From the IMG/VR virus record IMGVR_UViG_3300042731_002222, positions 1 through 20,746 of that record: a stretch of DNA of 20,746 nucleotides, one strand, 5' to 3'. Shown piece after piece: positions 6,100-15,613 of this stretch. Every line of letters starts with the position of its first letter. The first letter of the stretch is position 1. This stretch comes from a virus. The notes under the pieces were generated by a model, which saw only the letters and a list, made by a program, of their open reading frames with translations, did not search any database and was not told the DNA's origin. Both the position numbers and the translations under genes were made by a program.

Positions 6100-6657
6100 T
6101 TAATACGTTACAGTTGAGTTAGCAGATGCAATAACATACCATGATGTTCCTACATATCTAAGAGTTAACGTACCGTTTGCAGCCATACTAACAGCTGATG
6201 CTCCAGCAACGTTACTAGGGTCTACTGTAATACCTCCACCGCTAGCTATCAATGTAATTTCTTGACCTTCATCGCCAGCTGCTAATGTGTTTGTTCCACT
6301 GAACGTGTTAGAATCTAACACATAAGTATGATGTTCATAACTGTTTGCAGCAGGTAAAGAAGTTGGTGTTACTGTAGAGTATCTGATACCATCTTCTATA
6401 ATAAGCTGACCTTCAAATGTAGCCGGTAAACTGTTAACTATCTGTGTTGAGCTAACTACAAATCTGTTAGTACTGTTTGCAGTTAACGTTAAACTTCCAC
6501 CTGTTATAGCGCCAGTTAATGTTAAAGACTGTGCAGTTGTGTCTAACAAAGCTGTTATTCCATCTAGTCCAGAATCAAGAGCACTAAAGTTATCATTGAT
6601 AACTATTCTTGAAGTAGAAAGACTATCTGTTCCGTAAATTGTTGTAATACTTGCCAT
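6100..6657 (-). CDS. Small beta-rich fibre or decoration protein
   Basis: This protein of 185 residues is rich in Thr, Ser, Ala and Gly and almost free of Lys and Cys. It begins with TSRIVINDNFSALDSGLDGI (residues 15-34). An S/T-R-x-x-IN-x-N-F-x-x-L helix of this kind is common at the N-terminus of phage trimeric fibre and spike proteins. The rest alternates short beta segments (QSLTLTGAITGGSLTLTANS, later GTLTLRYVGTSWYVIASA), typical of intertwined trimeric beta structures. It starts six bases after the gp7-position gene, with an A-rich leader (TTTAAAAAGAA). It is probably a short trimeric baseplate-associated fibre or virion decoration; no receptor-binding tip is recognisable. Confidence 0.75.
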   Translation of the reverse strand: MASITTIYGTDSLSTSRIVINDNFSALDSGLDGITALLDTTAQSLTLTGAITGGSLTLTANSTNRFVVSSTQIVNSLPATFEGQLIIEDGIRYSTVTPTSLPAANSYEHHTYVLDSNTFSGTNTLAAGDEGQEITLIASGGGITVDPSNVAGASAVSMAANGTLTLRYVGTSWYVIASANSTVTY

Positions 6658-6663
6658 TTCTTT

Positions 6664-9384
6664 TTAAATTATTGTTAAGATGTTTTTTGTTGTTACATTT
6701 TTATTTCCATTAGAATCAGTCAATTCTAACTTGATTGTATAATCACCTTTGCTCTCAAACAAATAAGTCAGCCACTGATTGTTGTAGTATATATCTTTTT
6801 CATCTAGACTATTATTTATTAAAGTCCACTCTTGCTTTATGATGCCTGGCATATTTGTCAGGTCGTAAGAGAATGTTAGATGATTTAGTATTTTTACTGC
6901 CTCATGGTCTCTAATGATGTTTAAATTTTCAAACGTAGGATTGTAACTAACATAGTGTTGAATTCCTGATATATCACCGTCTGAAAGGGTTATGGTGTTA
7001 AAATCATAGTTTCTTCCAGGTTCCTCGGCAACCGCTAAAATAAAAGTACACTCGTCGTTTGTTCCATCTCCATTCGTGTCTACATATACAGGATTATAGT
7101 TAAATCTAGCTAATCTTGGGTTAGTCTGCTCTGTCAAAGCATTTAATTCATCAGCGACAATCTGCCACGCAGATAAATCAGTTGCGTCAGCTGGATATGT
7201 AGAGGTTATAGTATACGTGTCAGTTTGTGCAAGGTTATCACTCGGGTCTATCCAATTCATAGTTAATTCACCGCTTCCTGTATATCCTTGGTCTATTCTT
7301 ACGTCTATTTTAAATGAAGAGTTTATATCACTTCCAACTCTAGTCATATCCCAACTAACCTCATCACCATCACCCCATGTATGTGGTTTTAAATTTCTCC
7401 ACTGATATGGTCCTTGTGTTTCTGAAAAGCCTGTTGGAGAAGAAGGGTCTAAATACCTTCTAACCATTGAGAATTGAAATCCGTTTTCAGTTCCATTTAA
7501 ATAGTTTGCTCTATTTAAAGTTAAGTAGTAGGTTCCTATTACGTCTCTAACTTCTTCTTTGTTTTCATGAGCCCAATCCCATGAAGAACCTGCTTCTTCC
7601 CATGGAGTCTTATATTCTCTCCATGAAAGTTTAGGATATGTTTTTTCATAAACACCATAGATTTCAACCTCTTTCTGTGCAACGTGAATTGATTCTTCTC
7701 TTCTAATTACACTTCTAACGTTAAACAAATCATGAAAAGCCAGCTCTACGTTGTAAGTTCCGTGATAAGGTAAAACTAATGGAATCTCGTAATAGTCTGC
7801 TATTGGACCTCTTAGCGTTTTAGAATAATTATTAGGACCAGTAATAAACCATTCAATTTCATAGACGTTTCTGTACCACCAGTTATCCCATGTCATATCA
7901 TCTCCGCTTTCCTCAACATCTAAAAACGTAAAGTCTGCAGAATCCCATGTTTGTGGTAATGAATTTGCTTTTAAATTTATAGGAGCTCCAATAGGTATAC
8001 CGCTAAGGGTTTGAAAGGAGTTCATATCAGTATCATAGTAGTCGGTGTAAAAATCATCTATACTTTCTATTACGTCTGATTTGTCAGATGAGATTATCAA
8101 TGCATCAAAATCTTGACCTATACCTGTTAATCTATAGTCTACTTTTCTTAAATCTTCTATGAAAATTCTTCTCTCACCTGGAGTAAGTTCATAGTCTACA
8201 TGAACACCTTCATCTATGTCTTCTATTTTATGCTGATTACTAAAGACTCTGGTATTTACCTTTGCGAAATAGTCTCCTTCTCCAGTGATGTCAACAATCT
8301 TAGCCTGTAAAGGTAAATAGTATTTTTGAAGCTTATTCTTTAAACCGTAAAGTTTTATTAAAACTTCATCGGGAGAAAAATCAAAAACCTCATCTACCTG
8401 TGGAATATCATACTTGTCGAAAGTTCCGTTAAAGTTATTTAATCTATAGACCAATGAAAATCTAGAAGTTTTCTTATGGTTAGAGTTAGGTAACTGTGTG
8501 CTCTCGCTTTTAGCAGCCAAGAATCCTTTAGTTTCTTGGTTAGGAACCGCTACTGCAATCATTTTTCCAAATCCTTCGGCCTGCTCATTTATATTAAGCC
8601 AGTATTCCTTTAGAGTTAGGTTATCATATCCATAAAACTTAATAGCATTTAATAGAGCTTTATAGGTTCCAATAAAAGATTTTATTTCTTTTGCCTGTAG
8701 TAAAAGTTCTTTTCTTTTTTGATTGATTATTTGATAATCAGGTGAAAGCTCTTTAATGTCAGATTTTTTAAAGATTAAATAATCTGCTTCCTCTAAGTTC
8801 ATACCTATGTTAGTTAGCAAATCCTTTAATCTCTCATCCTCTCCTTCAACCTCACCATAGATTCTAATCTCAGCCACTAAATGTGTGTTAGTATTAGAAA
8901 CTCTTTCGTGAATTTGTAAAACTCTAGTGTGAAAACCTTCATCCTTACTAGAAAGAGTTACGTTACAGCTCATTGGAACGGCTTTAGGCTTTGTAGAAAT
9001 TACCTTAACTCCATTAGAAATAGATGAAGAAACAGAAGCGGCCTGTAAATCAGCATCAAGACTTTCAATTCTTTTTACATAAAATTTAGAATCCCTGTTC
9101 TCCGTTGAATATAAGTAAATATCGTTTGAAGAGCCATACTCATTAATAAAGTTAAACCTAAACTGAGCATTATTTCCATTCTCTGAAATAGGGTTAACAT
9201 ATCCTATTTGACCTAAACTAGCTTCAACCTCTTCTAATATGTAGATTGTAGTTGTCTCAAATAATCCTTCTGAAACTTCAGGTAAATATATTGTACCTGT
9301 CCACTTTTCAAGAGTAGAATCATAAGACATGTTTAAGTCATTAGATTGACTGTCAAAGAATTTTAAATTTTCGTATTTAGCCAT
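6664..9384 (-). CDS. Putative baseplate wedge protein at the gp7 position
   Basis: This 906-residue protein lies after gp6, where T4 has gp7 (1032 residues). Residues about 218-262 hold a helical segment, KELLLQAKEIKSFIGTYKAL, followed by LLNAIKFYGYDNLTLKEYW. That pattern resembles the conserved core of tail protein I/gp7-type wedge proteins. At least two Ig/PKD-like beta domains follow: about 507-567 (YEIEWFITGPNNYSKTLRGP, then HGTYNVELAFHDLFN) and about 835-906 (FESKGDYTIKLELTDSNGN). A Trp-rich linker lies around residues 575-660. The start overlaps the stop of the 90-residue gene as TAATG, suggesting translational coupling. A baseplate wedge role is well supported by context; the exact gp7 equivalence is inferred. 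Confidence 0.8.
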   Translation of the reverse strand: MAKYENLKFFDSQSNDLNMSYDSTLEKWTGTIYLPEVSEGLFETTTIYILEEVEASLGQIGYVNPISENGNNAQFRFNFINEYGSSNDIYLYSTENRDSKFYVKRIESLDADLQAASVSSSISNGVKVISTKPKAVPMSCNVTLSSKDEGFHTRVLQIHERVSNTNTHLVAEIRIYGEVEGEDERLKDLLTNIGMNLEEADYLIFKKSDIKELSPDYQIINQKRKELLLQAKEIKSFIGTYKALLNAIKFYGYDNLTLKEYWLNINEQAEGFGKMIAVAVPNQETKGFLAAKSESTQLPNSNHKKTSRFSLVYRLNNFNGTFDKYDIPQVDEVFDFSPDEVLIKLYGLKNKLQKYYLPLQAKIVDITGEGDYFAKVNTRVFSNQHKIEDIDEGVHVDYELTPGERRIFIEDLRKVDYRLTGIGQDFDALIISSDKSDVIESIDDFYTDYYDTDMNSFQTLSGIPIGAPINLKANSLPQTWDSADFTFLDVEESGDDMTWDNWWYRNVYEIEWFITGPNNYSKTLRGPIADYYEIPLVLPYHGTYNVELAFHDLFNVRSVIRREESIHVAQKEVEIYGVYEKTYPKLSWREYKTPWEEAGSSWDWAHENKEEVRDVIGTYYLTLNRANYLNGTENGFQFSMVRRYLDPSSPTGFSETQGPYQWRNLKPHTWGDGDEVSWDMTRVGSDINSSFKIDVRIDQGYTGSGELTMNWIDPSDNLAQTDTYTITSTYPADATDLSAWQIVADELNALTEQTNPRLARFNYNPVYVDTNGDGTNDECTFILAVAEEPGRNYDFNTITLSDGDISGIQHYVSYNPTFENLNIIRDHEAVKILNHLTFSYDLTNMPGIIKQEWTLINNSLDEKDIYYNNQWLTYLFESKGDYTIKLELTDSNGNKNVTTKNILTII

Positions 9385-12699: not shown

Positions 12700-12933
12700 T
12701 TACTTTATTTTTCTATTTATTTTATGGTCTTTCCAGAATTTATTTATCGTGTCCTTTAGGTCTTTAAGTAACTTAGTGACTTTTGGCCTATCTTCGTCAT
12801 TATATACATTAGTCATTTCAGAAGGTATCATATCTTTTAATAAAGAATGTGGAATCCCTCTATATACAAGTGTTTCATCCACTTTTTCAGAAGACTCTTT
12901 AATAAACTCGTTAAAATTATTTAAATGTTTCAT
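12700..12933 (-). CDS. Small protein with T4-type capsid-targeting N-terminus
   Basis: This protein of 77 residues starts MKHLNNFNEFIKES. The form MK-x-x-x-x-F-x-E-F-I-x-E/S closely resembles the capsid-targeting propeptide of T4 internal proteins (MKTYQEFIAE), which the prohead protease cuts after an (L/I)-x-E motif. Here the predicted cut is after I11-K12-E13. The mature part would be about 64 residues with VYRGIPHSLLKDM (residues 23-35) and a highly basic C-terminal helix (VTKLLKDLKDTINKFWKDHK). The VYRG segment recalls the first Arg motif of ADP-ribosyltransferases, but the protein is far too short for that fold. Its start overlaps the amidoligase stop as ATGA. A packaged internal protein is an inference; the reading frame itself is well placed. 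Confidence 0.7.
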   Translation of the reverse strand: MKHLNNFNEFIKESSEKVDETLVYRGIPHSLLKDMIPSEMTNVYNDEDRPKVTKLLKDLKDTINKFWKDHKINRKIK

Positions 12934-14222
12934 ACTTCAGTATATAGTATCATTTCAGTCTCATTAAACTTGGCGGTTTTCTTATCATACATTCCTTCTC
13001 TAAAAATACCACCATACATCGTTCCTTTAAATGTACCTTTTCCGTATATATAGCAGTCTTTTGCTACGACTGAACTGTGTACATAAGAACTTTTAATCTT
13101 AGAACCGTTTATTTGTGTAGATTGATAGAAATTACATTCCGTAATATCAGCTCCTTCTACATCACATCCAAAAATATCGCACTGTAAGAGCTCTCCTCTC
13201 AAATAACACTTTACGAATTCATAGGCTTGAATATCTACACAATACTCTAATCTTCCTCCTTCAACTTGAATTCTACCAACATCAGAGTCATAATTAATTT
13301 TACCCGAAGAAAGGTCGCCGTGTGTAAACAACTTAATAACTCTTTCTCTAACCATAGGCCAATATAAGTCTAATATCTTAGGGTCTTTTTTAAGGTCTAC
13401 AAAAAATTCAACATTTTTCCAACCTTTTTCAATCTCTCTCCAGTCGTGAAAAGATTTAATCACTCTGTCATTTTTTGCAAGAATTTTTCTAAGCTCTATT
13501 GAGTTCATTTGAGTAAACTCCTTTGACTCAGTACTATTCCATAACTGTGTTAAAAATAAATCTAAAACATGAAGTATTTTAGAAGTTTTCTTTTCCCAAT
13601 CTTGCCCACCTAAATATCTAAATTCTAAATAATTTTTATGTCTCTTTTCAAAGTTAACTCCATAGTACTTAGAGTCAGGAAAAATAAAGTTGTTTGCGTT
13701 TATATGATTTCCATCGAATGTATAAACGTCACTCTTAGGTAAAACAAATTTAATTGATTTTGCGTAAGCTGAATTTTCTCTATCTGGAAAAAACTTAAAT
13801 ACTTGAGATTCTTTGAAATCTAAAATAAATTTTAAGACGTTCATTTTAGATATTCTATACTTATCACCTATCTTATTCTTGTCAAATGAAAGATTCAAAT
13901 GTATTGAAGACCTGTCATTAGTGTAACCGTTTTTAGAAATCCAATCACAAACCCTGATAATCATAAGTCTTGCGTTGTGATAAGGTAAGGCACCTGTAAC
14001 TAATTCCATTAATTTAGCACCTCCACTCATATCAGGCTCGAGCTTAAACTCTTTATCAGTTACCTCAAAATCACTATGAGCCTTGTCTTCTACTCTGATT
14101 TTCTTACCTAACAGAGAACCGAGTTCTTTTGCAGTTTTCTCAATACTAAGATTAGAGTAAAACTCAAACTCTACTCCGACAAGAGCATTTGACAGAAATT
14201 TAGATTCAGTTATGTTATTCAT
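12930..14222 (-). CDS. Amidoligase-like enzyme with C-terminal beta-helix-like repeats
   Basis: This protein of 430 residues shows the motif series of the Amidoligase_2 family, part of the glutamine synthetase/GCS-like carboxylate-amine ligase fold. These enzymes join a carboxylate to an amine using ATP. Visible motifs are GVEFEF (residues 16-21, metal-binding Glu pair), EPDMS (62-66) followed by MELVTGALP (72-80), SSIHLNLSF (105-113) and NYLEFRYLGGQDWE (197-210, the Glu-Phe-Arg motif). Residues about 343-412 form short repeats such as CDIFGCDVEGADITECNF, like a pentapeptide or right-handed beta-helix. It follows a terminator and a candidate promoter and overlaps the 77-residue gene by four bases (ATGA). 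The substrate is unknown; peptidoglycan peptides or a host or virion protein are possibilities. Family assignment is fairly sure; activity is inferred. Confidence 0.75.
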   Translation of the reverse strand: MNNITESKFLSNALVGVEFEFYSNLSIEKTAKELGSLLGKKIRVEDKAHSDFEVTDKEFKLEPDMSGGAKLMELVTGALPYHNARLMIIRVCDWISKNGYTNDRSSIHLNLSFDKNKIGDKYRISKMNVLKFILDFKESQVFKFFPDRENSAYAKSIKFVLPKSDVYTFDGNHINANNFIFPDSKYYGVNFEKRHKNYLEFRYLGGQDWEKKTSKILHVLDLFLTQLWNSTESKEFTQMNSIELRKILAKNDRVIKSFHDWREIEKGWKNVEFFVDLKKDPKILDLYWPMVRERVIKLFTHGDLSSGKINYDSDVGRIQVEGGRLEYCVDIQAYEFVKCYLRGELLQCDIFGCDVEGADITECNFYQSTQINGSKIKSSYVHSSVVAKDCYIYGKGTFKGTMYGGIFREGMYDKKTAKFNETEMILYTEV

Positions 14223-14245: not shown

Positions 14246-14255
14246 TTTATATATC
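14246..14255 (-). promoter_or_regulatory. Candidate phage late promoter element GATATATAAA
   Basis: On the minus strand this reads GATATATAAA, 24 bases upstream of the amidoligase start and just downstream of the intrinsic terminator of the preceding unit. That is where a new promoter would be needed. The identical ten bases occur upstream of the S1-like gene, and GATATATA recurs upstream of the partial gene at the left edge. It resembles the TATAAATA late box of T4-type phages. There is no experimental support. Confidence 0.5.
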
Positions 14256-14260
14256 TCTCT

Positions 14261-14293
14261 AAAAAGAAGAAAGCCTGGTTATCGCCCAGGCTT
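14261..14293 (-). terminator. Intrinsic terminator after the S1-like gene
   Basis: On the minus strand a perfect 8-bp stem, AAGCCTGG with CCAGGCTT (14293-14286 and 14278-14271), encloses a 7-base loop GCGATAA. It is followed at once by TCTTCTTTTT (14270-14261). The T-rich tail is on the minus-strand side, so it ends transcription coming from the S1-like gene, about 80 bases after its stop. A weaker hairpin lies closer to the stop: AAGCTG/CAGCTT at 14361-14381, with the stop codon in its loop and followed by AAAATTTTT. Confidence 0.85.
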
Positions 14294-14372
14294 CCACTCT
14301 TAAAAAAATCTAAGTATCTTTTAGTAAATATACAAAAAAAATACGACCCGGAAAAATTTTAAGCTGACTTTT

Positions 14373-15566
14373 TTACAGCTTTAAGAAAACTTTTCTGGTT
14401 TCTTCCTCTATTCTTGATATTTCAACATTAACAGTATTACCCTGCTCGTACTCTTTTATTGAATTTTCAGGAAGTTCTGAGATGTGAAGTAATCCTGCAA
14501 CACCGTCTTCAATTTCTATAAATACACCATAATCTTTAACGGATTTGATTTTACCATCAACTCTACATGGTGTAGAGTATTTTTTAGAAACTCCATTCCA
14601 AGGATTTACTCTCTCAACTCTTTCAACTTGTGTTAACGTTATTTTCGTATTACTAATAATATCTTTAATCTTAAATTCTATTTCTTCACCTGGCTTAATG
14701 TCTTGTTTCTTGTGTCTTTTTAAGTATTCTGGAGATAGGTCATTTATATGAATCATACCAGTAAGACACGTGTTAAATTCAACAAAGACACCATACTTAG
14801 CGCTTCCAGTTACATGACCCTTTTGAGTATTTTCAAGGTCACCTTTTAATTTTTCTATTTGACCAGGAATCATTGCCTGTAAATACTTTCTATGAGAAAC
14901 AACAATTGTAGACTTTTCATTTGAGTATGTTACAGGAACAAAATACATTTCTTGTCCAATGATCGATTCAAAATCATGAAGCTTGTTAATACCTGCTAAA
15001 GAACCTGGCATAAAACACTCAACTCCTTGAATATCTACCATGTATCCTCCACCCGGAATCATCTTTAAGACTTTACCTACATAGGCTGTATTACCTTCTT
15101 CTATAGAAGCTAGAATTTCGTTGAATTTAGCAGTTGCCATTCCAGCACCAATAGAACCTATGACAAACCCTCTCTTGTTAGAAGATTTATCAGAAGTTAC
15201 TTCTACATCAACCAACATTCCAGCTGCAATGTTTTCTCTGATTTCAGAGTCTTCTCTGTTTAAATCAATGTAAACATTTTCTCTGTACCCTATATCAACC
15301 GAAGCCCAGTGGTCTTCGATTGCATATATTTTACCTGAATAAGTTTGACCTATTTGAACATTAAAGACTACACCACCATCTCTGTCGTGGTTTTCATAAA
15401 GGTCTAAAAGTTCTTGGGCGTAAGGTTCTCTAGAAAATACTTTTACTCCTTGTGGAGCTTTAATGTGAGGATTTGGTTTTCTAGTTTTTGTTGGGCAATG
15501 TGCCTCATAAGCATCCCAGTCAAATTCTTCTGTTTCGATCTGAGAGTCTAAGATTTCTTCAATCAT
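14373..15566 (-). CDS. Ribosomal protein S1-like protein with four S1 domains
   Basis: This 397-residue protein has four OB-fold S1 RNA-binding domains at about 72-140, 158-228, 243-315 and 331-397. The last two are canonical (GSAKYGVFVEF with GMIHINDLS; KSVKDYGVFIEI with GLLHISELP). Domain 2 carries GGGYMVDIQGVECFMPGS, the form typical of ribosome-binding domain 2 of bacterial S1. The N-terminus EEFDWDAYEA and the NPW linker after domain 3 match the Bacteroidota S1 pattern as remembered. The layout is therefore collinear with domains 1-4 of a six-domain host S1, with the last two missing. S1 recruits mRNA to the 30S subunit; a phage copy could favour phage mRNAs. The gene has its own candidate promoter and terminator. 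The leader is AAAAAAATATAA, with no Shine-Dalgarno sequence. Confidence 0.9.
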   Translation of the reverse strand: MIEEILDSQIETEEFDWDAYEAHCPTKTRKPNPHIKAPQGVKVFSREPYAQELLDLYENHDRDGGVVFNVQIGQTYSGKIYAIEDHWASVDIGYRENVYIDLNREDSEIRENIAAGMLVDVEVTSDKSSNKRGFVIGSIGAGMATAKFNEILASIEEGNTAYVGKVLKMIPGGGYMVDIQGVECFMPGSLAGINKLHDFESIIGQEMYFVPVTYSNEKSTIVVSHRKYLQAMIPGQIEKLKGDLENTQKGHVTGSAKYGVFVEFNTCLTGMIHINDLSPEYLKRHKKQDIKPGEEIEFKIKDIISNTKITLTQVERVERVNPWNGVSKKYSTPCRVDGKIKSVKDYGVFIEIEDGVAGLLHISELPENSIKEYEQGNTVNVEISRIEEETRKVFLKL

Positions 15567-15603: not shown

Positions 15604-15613
15604 TTTATATATC
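15604..15613 (-). promoter_or_regulatory. Candidate phage late promoter element GATATATAAA
   Basis: On the minus strand this reads GATATATAAA, 38 bases upstream of the S1-like start in a 65-base gap. It is identical over ten bases to the element before the amidoligase gene. The A/T-rich leader that follows (AAGTATAATTTACAGTTTAA) could hold a second -10-like box, TATAAT. No terminator for the upstream block is visible in this gap, so read-through from the spike block is also possible. Confidence 0.5.

Follow-up and report, generated by a model that had tools for sequence, protein, structure and literature searches.

A divergent bS1 homologue encoded among the baseplate genes of Bacteroidota phages

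The window, by which we mean the whole analysed stretch of 20,746 nucleotides (positions 1 to 20,746 of the IMG/VR virus record IMGVR_UViG_3300042731_002222), carries the gene of an S1-like protein within a baseplate cluster. The features at this locus are the following.

15604..15613, minus strand: late-promoter-like motif GATATATAAA, 38 bp upstream of the S1 ATG.
14373..15566, minus strand: phage S1-like protein gene, an uninterrupted ATG ORF of 397 amino acids.
15504..15524, minus strand: FDWDAYE (residues 15-21), the Bacteroidia-type S1 N-terminal motif, in which F15 and W17 do not vary among 16 group phages.
15384..15419, minus strand: predicted helix 50-61 (AQELLDLYENHD region), aligned with the N-terminal docking helix of E. 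coli S1 (F5/F9).
15153..15350, minus strand: OB domain 1 (residues 73-138), D1 type.
15282-15284, minus strand: Arg95 in OB domain 1, at the E. coli Lys43 position.
14880..15089, minus strand: OB domain 2 (residues 160-229), D2 type.
Within OB domain 2, minus strand: Tyr175 and Phe185, at E. coli F120/F130.
14625..14831, minus strand: OB domain 3 (residues 246-314), D3-D5 type, closest to host D5.
14376..14579, minus strand: OB domain 4 (residues 330-397), D3-D5 type, closest to host D4.
14269..14295, minus strand: intrinsic-terminator-like hairpin, 10 pairs and then T-rich, about 78 bp past the S1 stop.
12930..14222, minus strand: amidoligase-like gene (Pfam Amidoligase_2, 2.5e-6), the neighbour of S1 across the group, preceded by a separate GATATATAAA at 14246-14255.

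The initial annotation had placed an S1-like frame at 14373-15566, and a single unbroken ORF indeed occupies exactly this stretch. Pfam S1 recognized the protein with an E value of 3e-26, and NCBIfam bS1 models covered residues 65-396. The scores stayed far under the bS1 equivalog cut-offs (166 vs 524 bits for NF004952, 148 vs 577 for TIGR00717 and 141 vs 368 for PRK06676), so that by this measure the protein falls outside the standard rpsA products. In PHROGs it had no match. Its best solved relatives are the bS1 chains of E. coli and others, and an AlphaFold2 model predicted four OB folds, a short helix at FDWDAYE and the helix at 50-61. This model is of moderate quality (pLDDT 70.5, pTM 0.41) and its interdomain angles were for that reason left uninterpreted. 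The top structural matches were bS1 in 30S mRNA-delivery complexes, with residues 65-397 superimposed on 14-346 of E. coli S1 at Z 14.3 and residues 46-397 on 1-346 at Z 13.9. The four S1 domains proposed initially are thus borne out by the predicted fold and by the span of the bS1 models, but only the last two repeats gave separate Pfam stretches. From its sequence we assign the window protein as a divergent bS1 homologue. The dN/dS of 0.069 between the gene and its 86% relative, similar to that of the baseplate neighbours, indicates purifying selection, and at least 201 S1 relatives were confirmed in IMG/VR. Many of the relatives (L005, L006, L008, L011-L013, L015, L020 and L030) carry about 25-45 additional residues at the N-terminus, in a tail with a basic start (for example MSENKRKR) that the window protein does not have.

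To assign the domain types, 16 phage S1s were compared domain by domain with 22 Bacteroidota S1s, giving 352 pairs. Phage domain 2 corresponded to D2 in all of them, and the ECFMPGS segment, from which a domain 2 of the ribosome-binding type had been proposed, sits in this domain. Domain 1 corresponded to D1 in 278/352 comparisons, domain 3 was most like host D5 in 279/352 and domain 4 most like host D4 in 261/352. A domain tree confirmed D1 and D2, with phage domains 3 and 4 falling within D3-D5 without closer placement. The two canonical S1 repeats at positions 3 and 4 are D4/D5-like in sequence, and D6 is absent from phage S1. Since domains 3 and 4 are closest to D5 and D4, the collinearity with D1-D4 suggested by the initial annotation holds in order and fold, the structure aligning in order to residues 1-346 of E. 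coli S1, but not in sequence type. Of the supposed absence of domains 5 and 6, that of D6 was confirmed. The sequence type of domains 3 and 4 gives no support to a plain truncation to D1-D4. The NPW linker was dropped as a mark of Bacteroidota S1, as E. coli S1 has NPW too and the Bacteroidota D3-D4 linker reads HPW, with NPW at D5-D6. Among the phage S1s, mean identity was highest for domain 2 (76%), followed by domain 3 (67%) and domain 4 (56%), and lowest for domain 1 (41%).

The N-terminal F-x-W motif was found in all 16 non-redundant group phages, mostly as FDW, with FNW in L013 and FMW in L030, and the S1 protein of a Lak phage carries FDW as well. F[DN]W was present in 16 of the 48 host S1s sampled from the phylum Bacteroidota, including Sunxiuqinia, and PDB chain 9zcd_A, nearly identical to host L078, has FNW. 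The N-terminal likeness to Bacteroidota S1 seen at the outset is therefore real, and we infer that F-x-W is restricted to the class Bacteroidia. In E. coli, Lys43 of S1 inserts into the Zn pocket of uS2 (PMC10123108). At this position, with contact positions taken from the same study, arginine was found in 14/14 group phages, and lysine in 4/5 huge-phage proteins and 26/26 hosts; R95 was invariant in 16/16 group phages. The aromatic residue F9 of the N-terminal helix is missing in 5/14 phages, and the loop that contacts bS21 (G78/F79) varies in the phages as it does in the hosts; both observations count against a substitution of host S1 by the phage protein.

The pocket of OB2 differs between phages and hosts. 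The F120 position is Tyr/Phe in 19/19 phage proteins and Met/Leu/Ile in 26/26 hosts (aromatic in 0/26), whereas F130 is universal in phage and host S1s. At K117, hosts have K/R in 26/26 cases and phage proteins Pro/Glu/Gln/His in 18/19, although a one-residue gap in the alignment near this residue makes its register less sure than that of F120. With respect to the docking surface of domains 1 and 2, which the initial annotation had made decisive, the N-terminal helix, a basic residue at the Lys43 position and the FDW motif are retained, and the mRNA-facing residues of OB2 are altered.

S1 domains are found in many non-ribosomal proteins. The phage protein may act off the ribosome as an RNA-binding protein, whether by protecting late mRNA as a chaperone, by assisting the RNA polymerase of phage or host, or by regulating an RNase after co-option, and the wide margin by which every bS1 equivalog cut-off was missed fits such a role. 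Host S1 itself serves Q-beta replicase and T4 RegB, according to literature named in PMC13157829. Against this, the phage proteins have kept traits of ribosomal S1 across great divergence, namely domains of D1 and D2 type, an FDW motif of the Bacteroidia type and the Lys43 position, and we consider a function off the ribosome unlikely.

The gene appears to form its own transcription unit, as had been proposed, with GATATATAAA ahead of the ATG and the terminator-like 10-bp stem past the stop. Two copies of GATATATAAA occur in the window vs 0.15 expected, one before S1 and one before the amidoligase gene. In the 16 group members read, S1 is preceded by GATATATA or a near variant. Over 19 loci, 72 copies of GATATATA lay on the gene strand vs 1 on the opposite strand, and the same loci held 47 copies in 10.9 kb of intergenic sequence vs 25 in 358 kb of coding sequence. 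Hairpins similar to that of the window were seen 3' of S1 in L004, L005, L008, L024-L026 and L030.

The neighbouring genes bear out the location of S1 in a baseplate/tail cluster. The gene order common to the compared group contigs is hub/spike genes, S1, amidoligase, head-tail adaptor Ad2, gp25 and wedge, and the genes adjoining S1 follow the same order in the 462-kb phage LR756500. With Ad2 as an independent bait, S1 was found in 72 of 73 loci having at least 3.4 kb upstream, on the same strand and 1.35-3.3 kb upstream, the single miss stopping at a contig end. S1 is a core gene of this phage group. Its location and the phage-specific promoter-like motif point to a late gene. Cultured phages with related baseplates, namely Tenacibaculum pT24 and PTm5, Flavobacterium MaF61, Chryseobacterium MA9V-1 and phage PAU, had no detectable S1, which argues against S1 being a necessity. 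The amidoligase-like protein combines its Amidoligase_2 domain with pentapeptide-like repeats at the C-terminus. Small proteins with N-termini of the form MKxxxxFxEFIxE, like T4-type capsid-targeting propeptides, are encoded in the window (12700-12933, minus strand), in G101 (6270-6602 and 7551-8309) and in L296 (415-1781), and are possibly internal head proteins of the phage group.

The constant position in the baseplate cluster, at 72/73 loci, could also reflect a protein of the virion or its assembly, which would take part in building the tail or baseplate or be injected with the genome. Yet the protein has no match to a baseplate family, its best matches are ribosomal S1, and the gene has its own promoter motif and terminator, so we give this explanation very little credence. 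In another explanation, the phage S1 would fill the uS2 site, deliver mRNA poorly owing to its smaller number of RNA-binding domains and altered OB2, and act as a dominant-negative on host initiation. Such a shut-off of the host is in line with docking features that are kept while OB2 pocket residues differ, and with the absence of two of the six domains. However, SD-less phage mRNAs would suffer too, the good conservation of domains 3 and 4 is unexpected for a plug, and the position of the gene, in a block of virion genes and downstream of a phage promoter-like motif, suggests expression at a stage that demands strong phage translation. We regard host shut-off as quite improbable.

A tree of D1-D2 was built from 47 rows, including 14 group phages and 5 huge-phage proteins. 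All compared phage S1s, those of huge phages included, came out as a single clade (support 100/100), whose stem measures 4.3 changes per column. The clade lies beside the FDW-type S1s of Bacteroidota, with support of 90/94 for phages plus those hosts; a placement outside Bacteroidota was not rejected (AU p = 0.44). The tree is thus compatible with an origin inside Bacteroidota, as in the initial description of a shortened Bacteroidota S1, and equally with one outside. The FDW columns of most phages fell outside the stretch aligned for the tree and the motif is therefore largely separate evidence. The single phage clade on its very long stem rules out a recent capture of host S1, and by sequence comparison the phage S1 is an old phage lineage common to huge phages. 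Sequences filed under 'Acinetobacter phage MD-2021a' look like bacterial chromosome and served as outgroup only; one of them, L093 (CAKLQH020000011.1), has the order cmk-rpsA-himD-pyrF. A second divergent S1-like protein of 505-558 aa without the FDW motif was seen beside the main S1 in 5/99 Bacteroidota-phylum genomes (L067-L071). Among the best 30 phage records for the baseplate wedge protein, the stated hosts were Tenacibaculum, Prevotella, Flavobacterium and Chryseobacterium, with phage PAU (Sphingomonas) as the one exception, which supports a Bacteroidota host.

Of the group contigs in three sets, 6/18, 8/21 and 13/20 were seen to carry a gene for bS21. Where present, it is always upstream of S1, at 15-33 kb (median 20 kb; S1 positions of the Ad2-bait contigs are approximate), and it was present in 26 of the 28 contigs that extend 24 kb or more beyond S1 on that side. 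Conversely, of 22 contigs with bS21, for which a single bS21 protein served as query, 14 carry S1; in the other 8, neither S1 nor the window-type baseplate was found, an empty search being weak evidence there. Three of the five huge phages tested (LR756504, LR745206 and LR756501) carry both genes. In three lineages bS21 lies between a DnaJ-like region and a small gene preceding PhoH, and the bS21 aromatic residue near position 54 is kept in the group members aligned. Within 130 bp of bS21 no GATATATA was seen in the seven members read, where bS21 follows closely behind other genes, and control of bS21 by the promoter motif of S1 was rejected. In the near-identical 41.7-kb relative of the window, this slot is taken by a thioredoxin-like gene and no bS21 was seen. 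The pairing is therefore a property of the group and only conjectural for the window's own lineage, and the lack of bS21 from its usual slot there counts against the substitution of host S1. A thioredoxin-like gene occupies the usual place of bS21 in L190 (G101, 560-964), possibly by local gene replacement. IF3 and bL12, considered as further partners, were not found in the group contigs tested. On the E. coli 30S subunit, bS21 and bS1 are in contact (PMC10123108). One could imagine that phage S1 and bS21 are a matched pair that replaces the host proteins along the mRNA exit channel and gives a virus-specified 30S platform, on which late SD-less phage mRNA would be chosen via the rebuilt aromatic pocket of OB2; we put this forward as a tentative and rather doubtful extension.

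S1-domain proteins have been described in huge phages, where SD sequences are rare, and a role in initiation was proposed for them (Al-Shayeb 2020, PMC7162821). The huge phages LR756500, LR756504, LR745206 and LR756501 and the Lak phages belong to the same clade as the window S1 and share the S1 repeats and the aromatic OB2 position, the Lak protein matching domains 1-3 only. Like the window group, the huge phages have no SD signal and predicted Bacteroidota hosts. Their S1s are 29-35% identical to that of the window. In the window group the contigs are smaller (to 256 kb), those tested yielded no IF3, and S1 keeps strictly to the baseplate cluster; an IF3-like protein is also encoded by LR756500, LR756504 and LR756501. 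Full-length fold matches were obtained with A0A7S9STL2 ('S1 motif protein', Virus NIOZ-UU157; 38% identity) and A0A8D9CG03 ('30S ribosomal protein S1', uncultured marine phage; 28% identity), and our literature search found no study of proteins of this type as a group. Bacteroidia bS1 (rpsA) shares the FDW motif, D1 and D2 with the window S1, which differs in being only about 28% identical, in having four domains instead of six and no D6, in its changed OB2 pocket and in its long stem.

The bS21 phages of Bacteroidetes (Chen 2022, PMC9723584) share with the group a phage bS21, Bacteroidota hosts and a link to late genes, but their complete genomes are without other ribosomal protein genes according to the authors, whereas the window group has S1. 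The bS1 of cyanophage PhiMa05 (PMC13157829) is comparable by its description as a phage bS1 proposed to enter host ribosomes; it differs by its origin from Vampirovibrio-like hosts and its occurrence alongside five other ribosomal proteins. Mizuno 2019 had left the S1 domain out of account because ribosomal proteins are not the only ones to have it. A core S1 subfamily in smaller Bacteroidota phages with an OB2 signature, its own promoter motif and linkage to bS21 was not found described in our literature search. The core subfamily, its OB2 signature and its pairing with S21 appear to be new; S1 in huge phages and the idea of a role in initiation were already known.

Bacteroidia ribosomes sequester their anti-SD, and purified F. 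johnsoniae bS1 increased initiation on SD-less mRNA twofold in vitro (PMC9976891), which makes S1 a sensible target for a phage. The phages show no Shine-Dalgarno signal, with SD cores in 11/300 phage genes vs 12.6 expected from shuffles. This absence is expected of any phage in these hosts and therefore does not discriminate between functions of S1; the host already initiates without SD, so that no need for a phage S1 is singled out. Being confounded by the host, SD absence was dropped as evidence for S1 function.

The reading we favor, at slightly better than even odds, is that late in infection phage S1 replaces host S1 on the 30S subunit or competes with it there, so that late phage mRNA is preferred at initiation. 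The data show the gene with its domains and fold, its conservation and location, the promoter-like motif, the bS21 linkage and the residue patterns; ribosome binding, late timing and mRNA preference are what we infer. Docking on uS2, where mRNA leaves its channel, would fall to domain 1 together with the N-terminal helix, the FDW motif and Arg95 in loop 2. The A-rich, Shine-Dalgarno-less leaders of late phage mRNAs would be captured by domain 2, remodelled around Tyr175/Phe185, and by the putative RNA-binding domains 3 and 4, and this capture would tilt initiation to the proteins of the virion. Most relatives may also exchange the bS21 at the neighbouring site for a phage version. The redirection of ribosomes to phage mRNA suggested in the initial annotation fits the docking and OB2 patterns, though the idea itself had been published (PMC7162821).

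S1 and S21 are leading suspects for the choice of mRNA by Bacteroidota ribosomes, whose anti-Shine-Dalgarno is hidden. A common phage group with its own core, probably late S1 and usually its own S21 is a natural perturbation of this system. If the proteins enter host ribosomes, the comparison of phage and host (Lys43 to Arg, OB2 Met/Leu to Tyr) would reveal the contacts that select SD-less mRNA. That a large group of uncultured Bacteroidota viruses has a shortened and remodelled S1, usually together with S21, suggests that these viruses refit the mRNA-capturing part of the host ribosome; if true, such refitting would be an established strategy also outside the largest phages, in a group whose contigs mostly stay below 260 kb.
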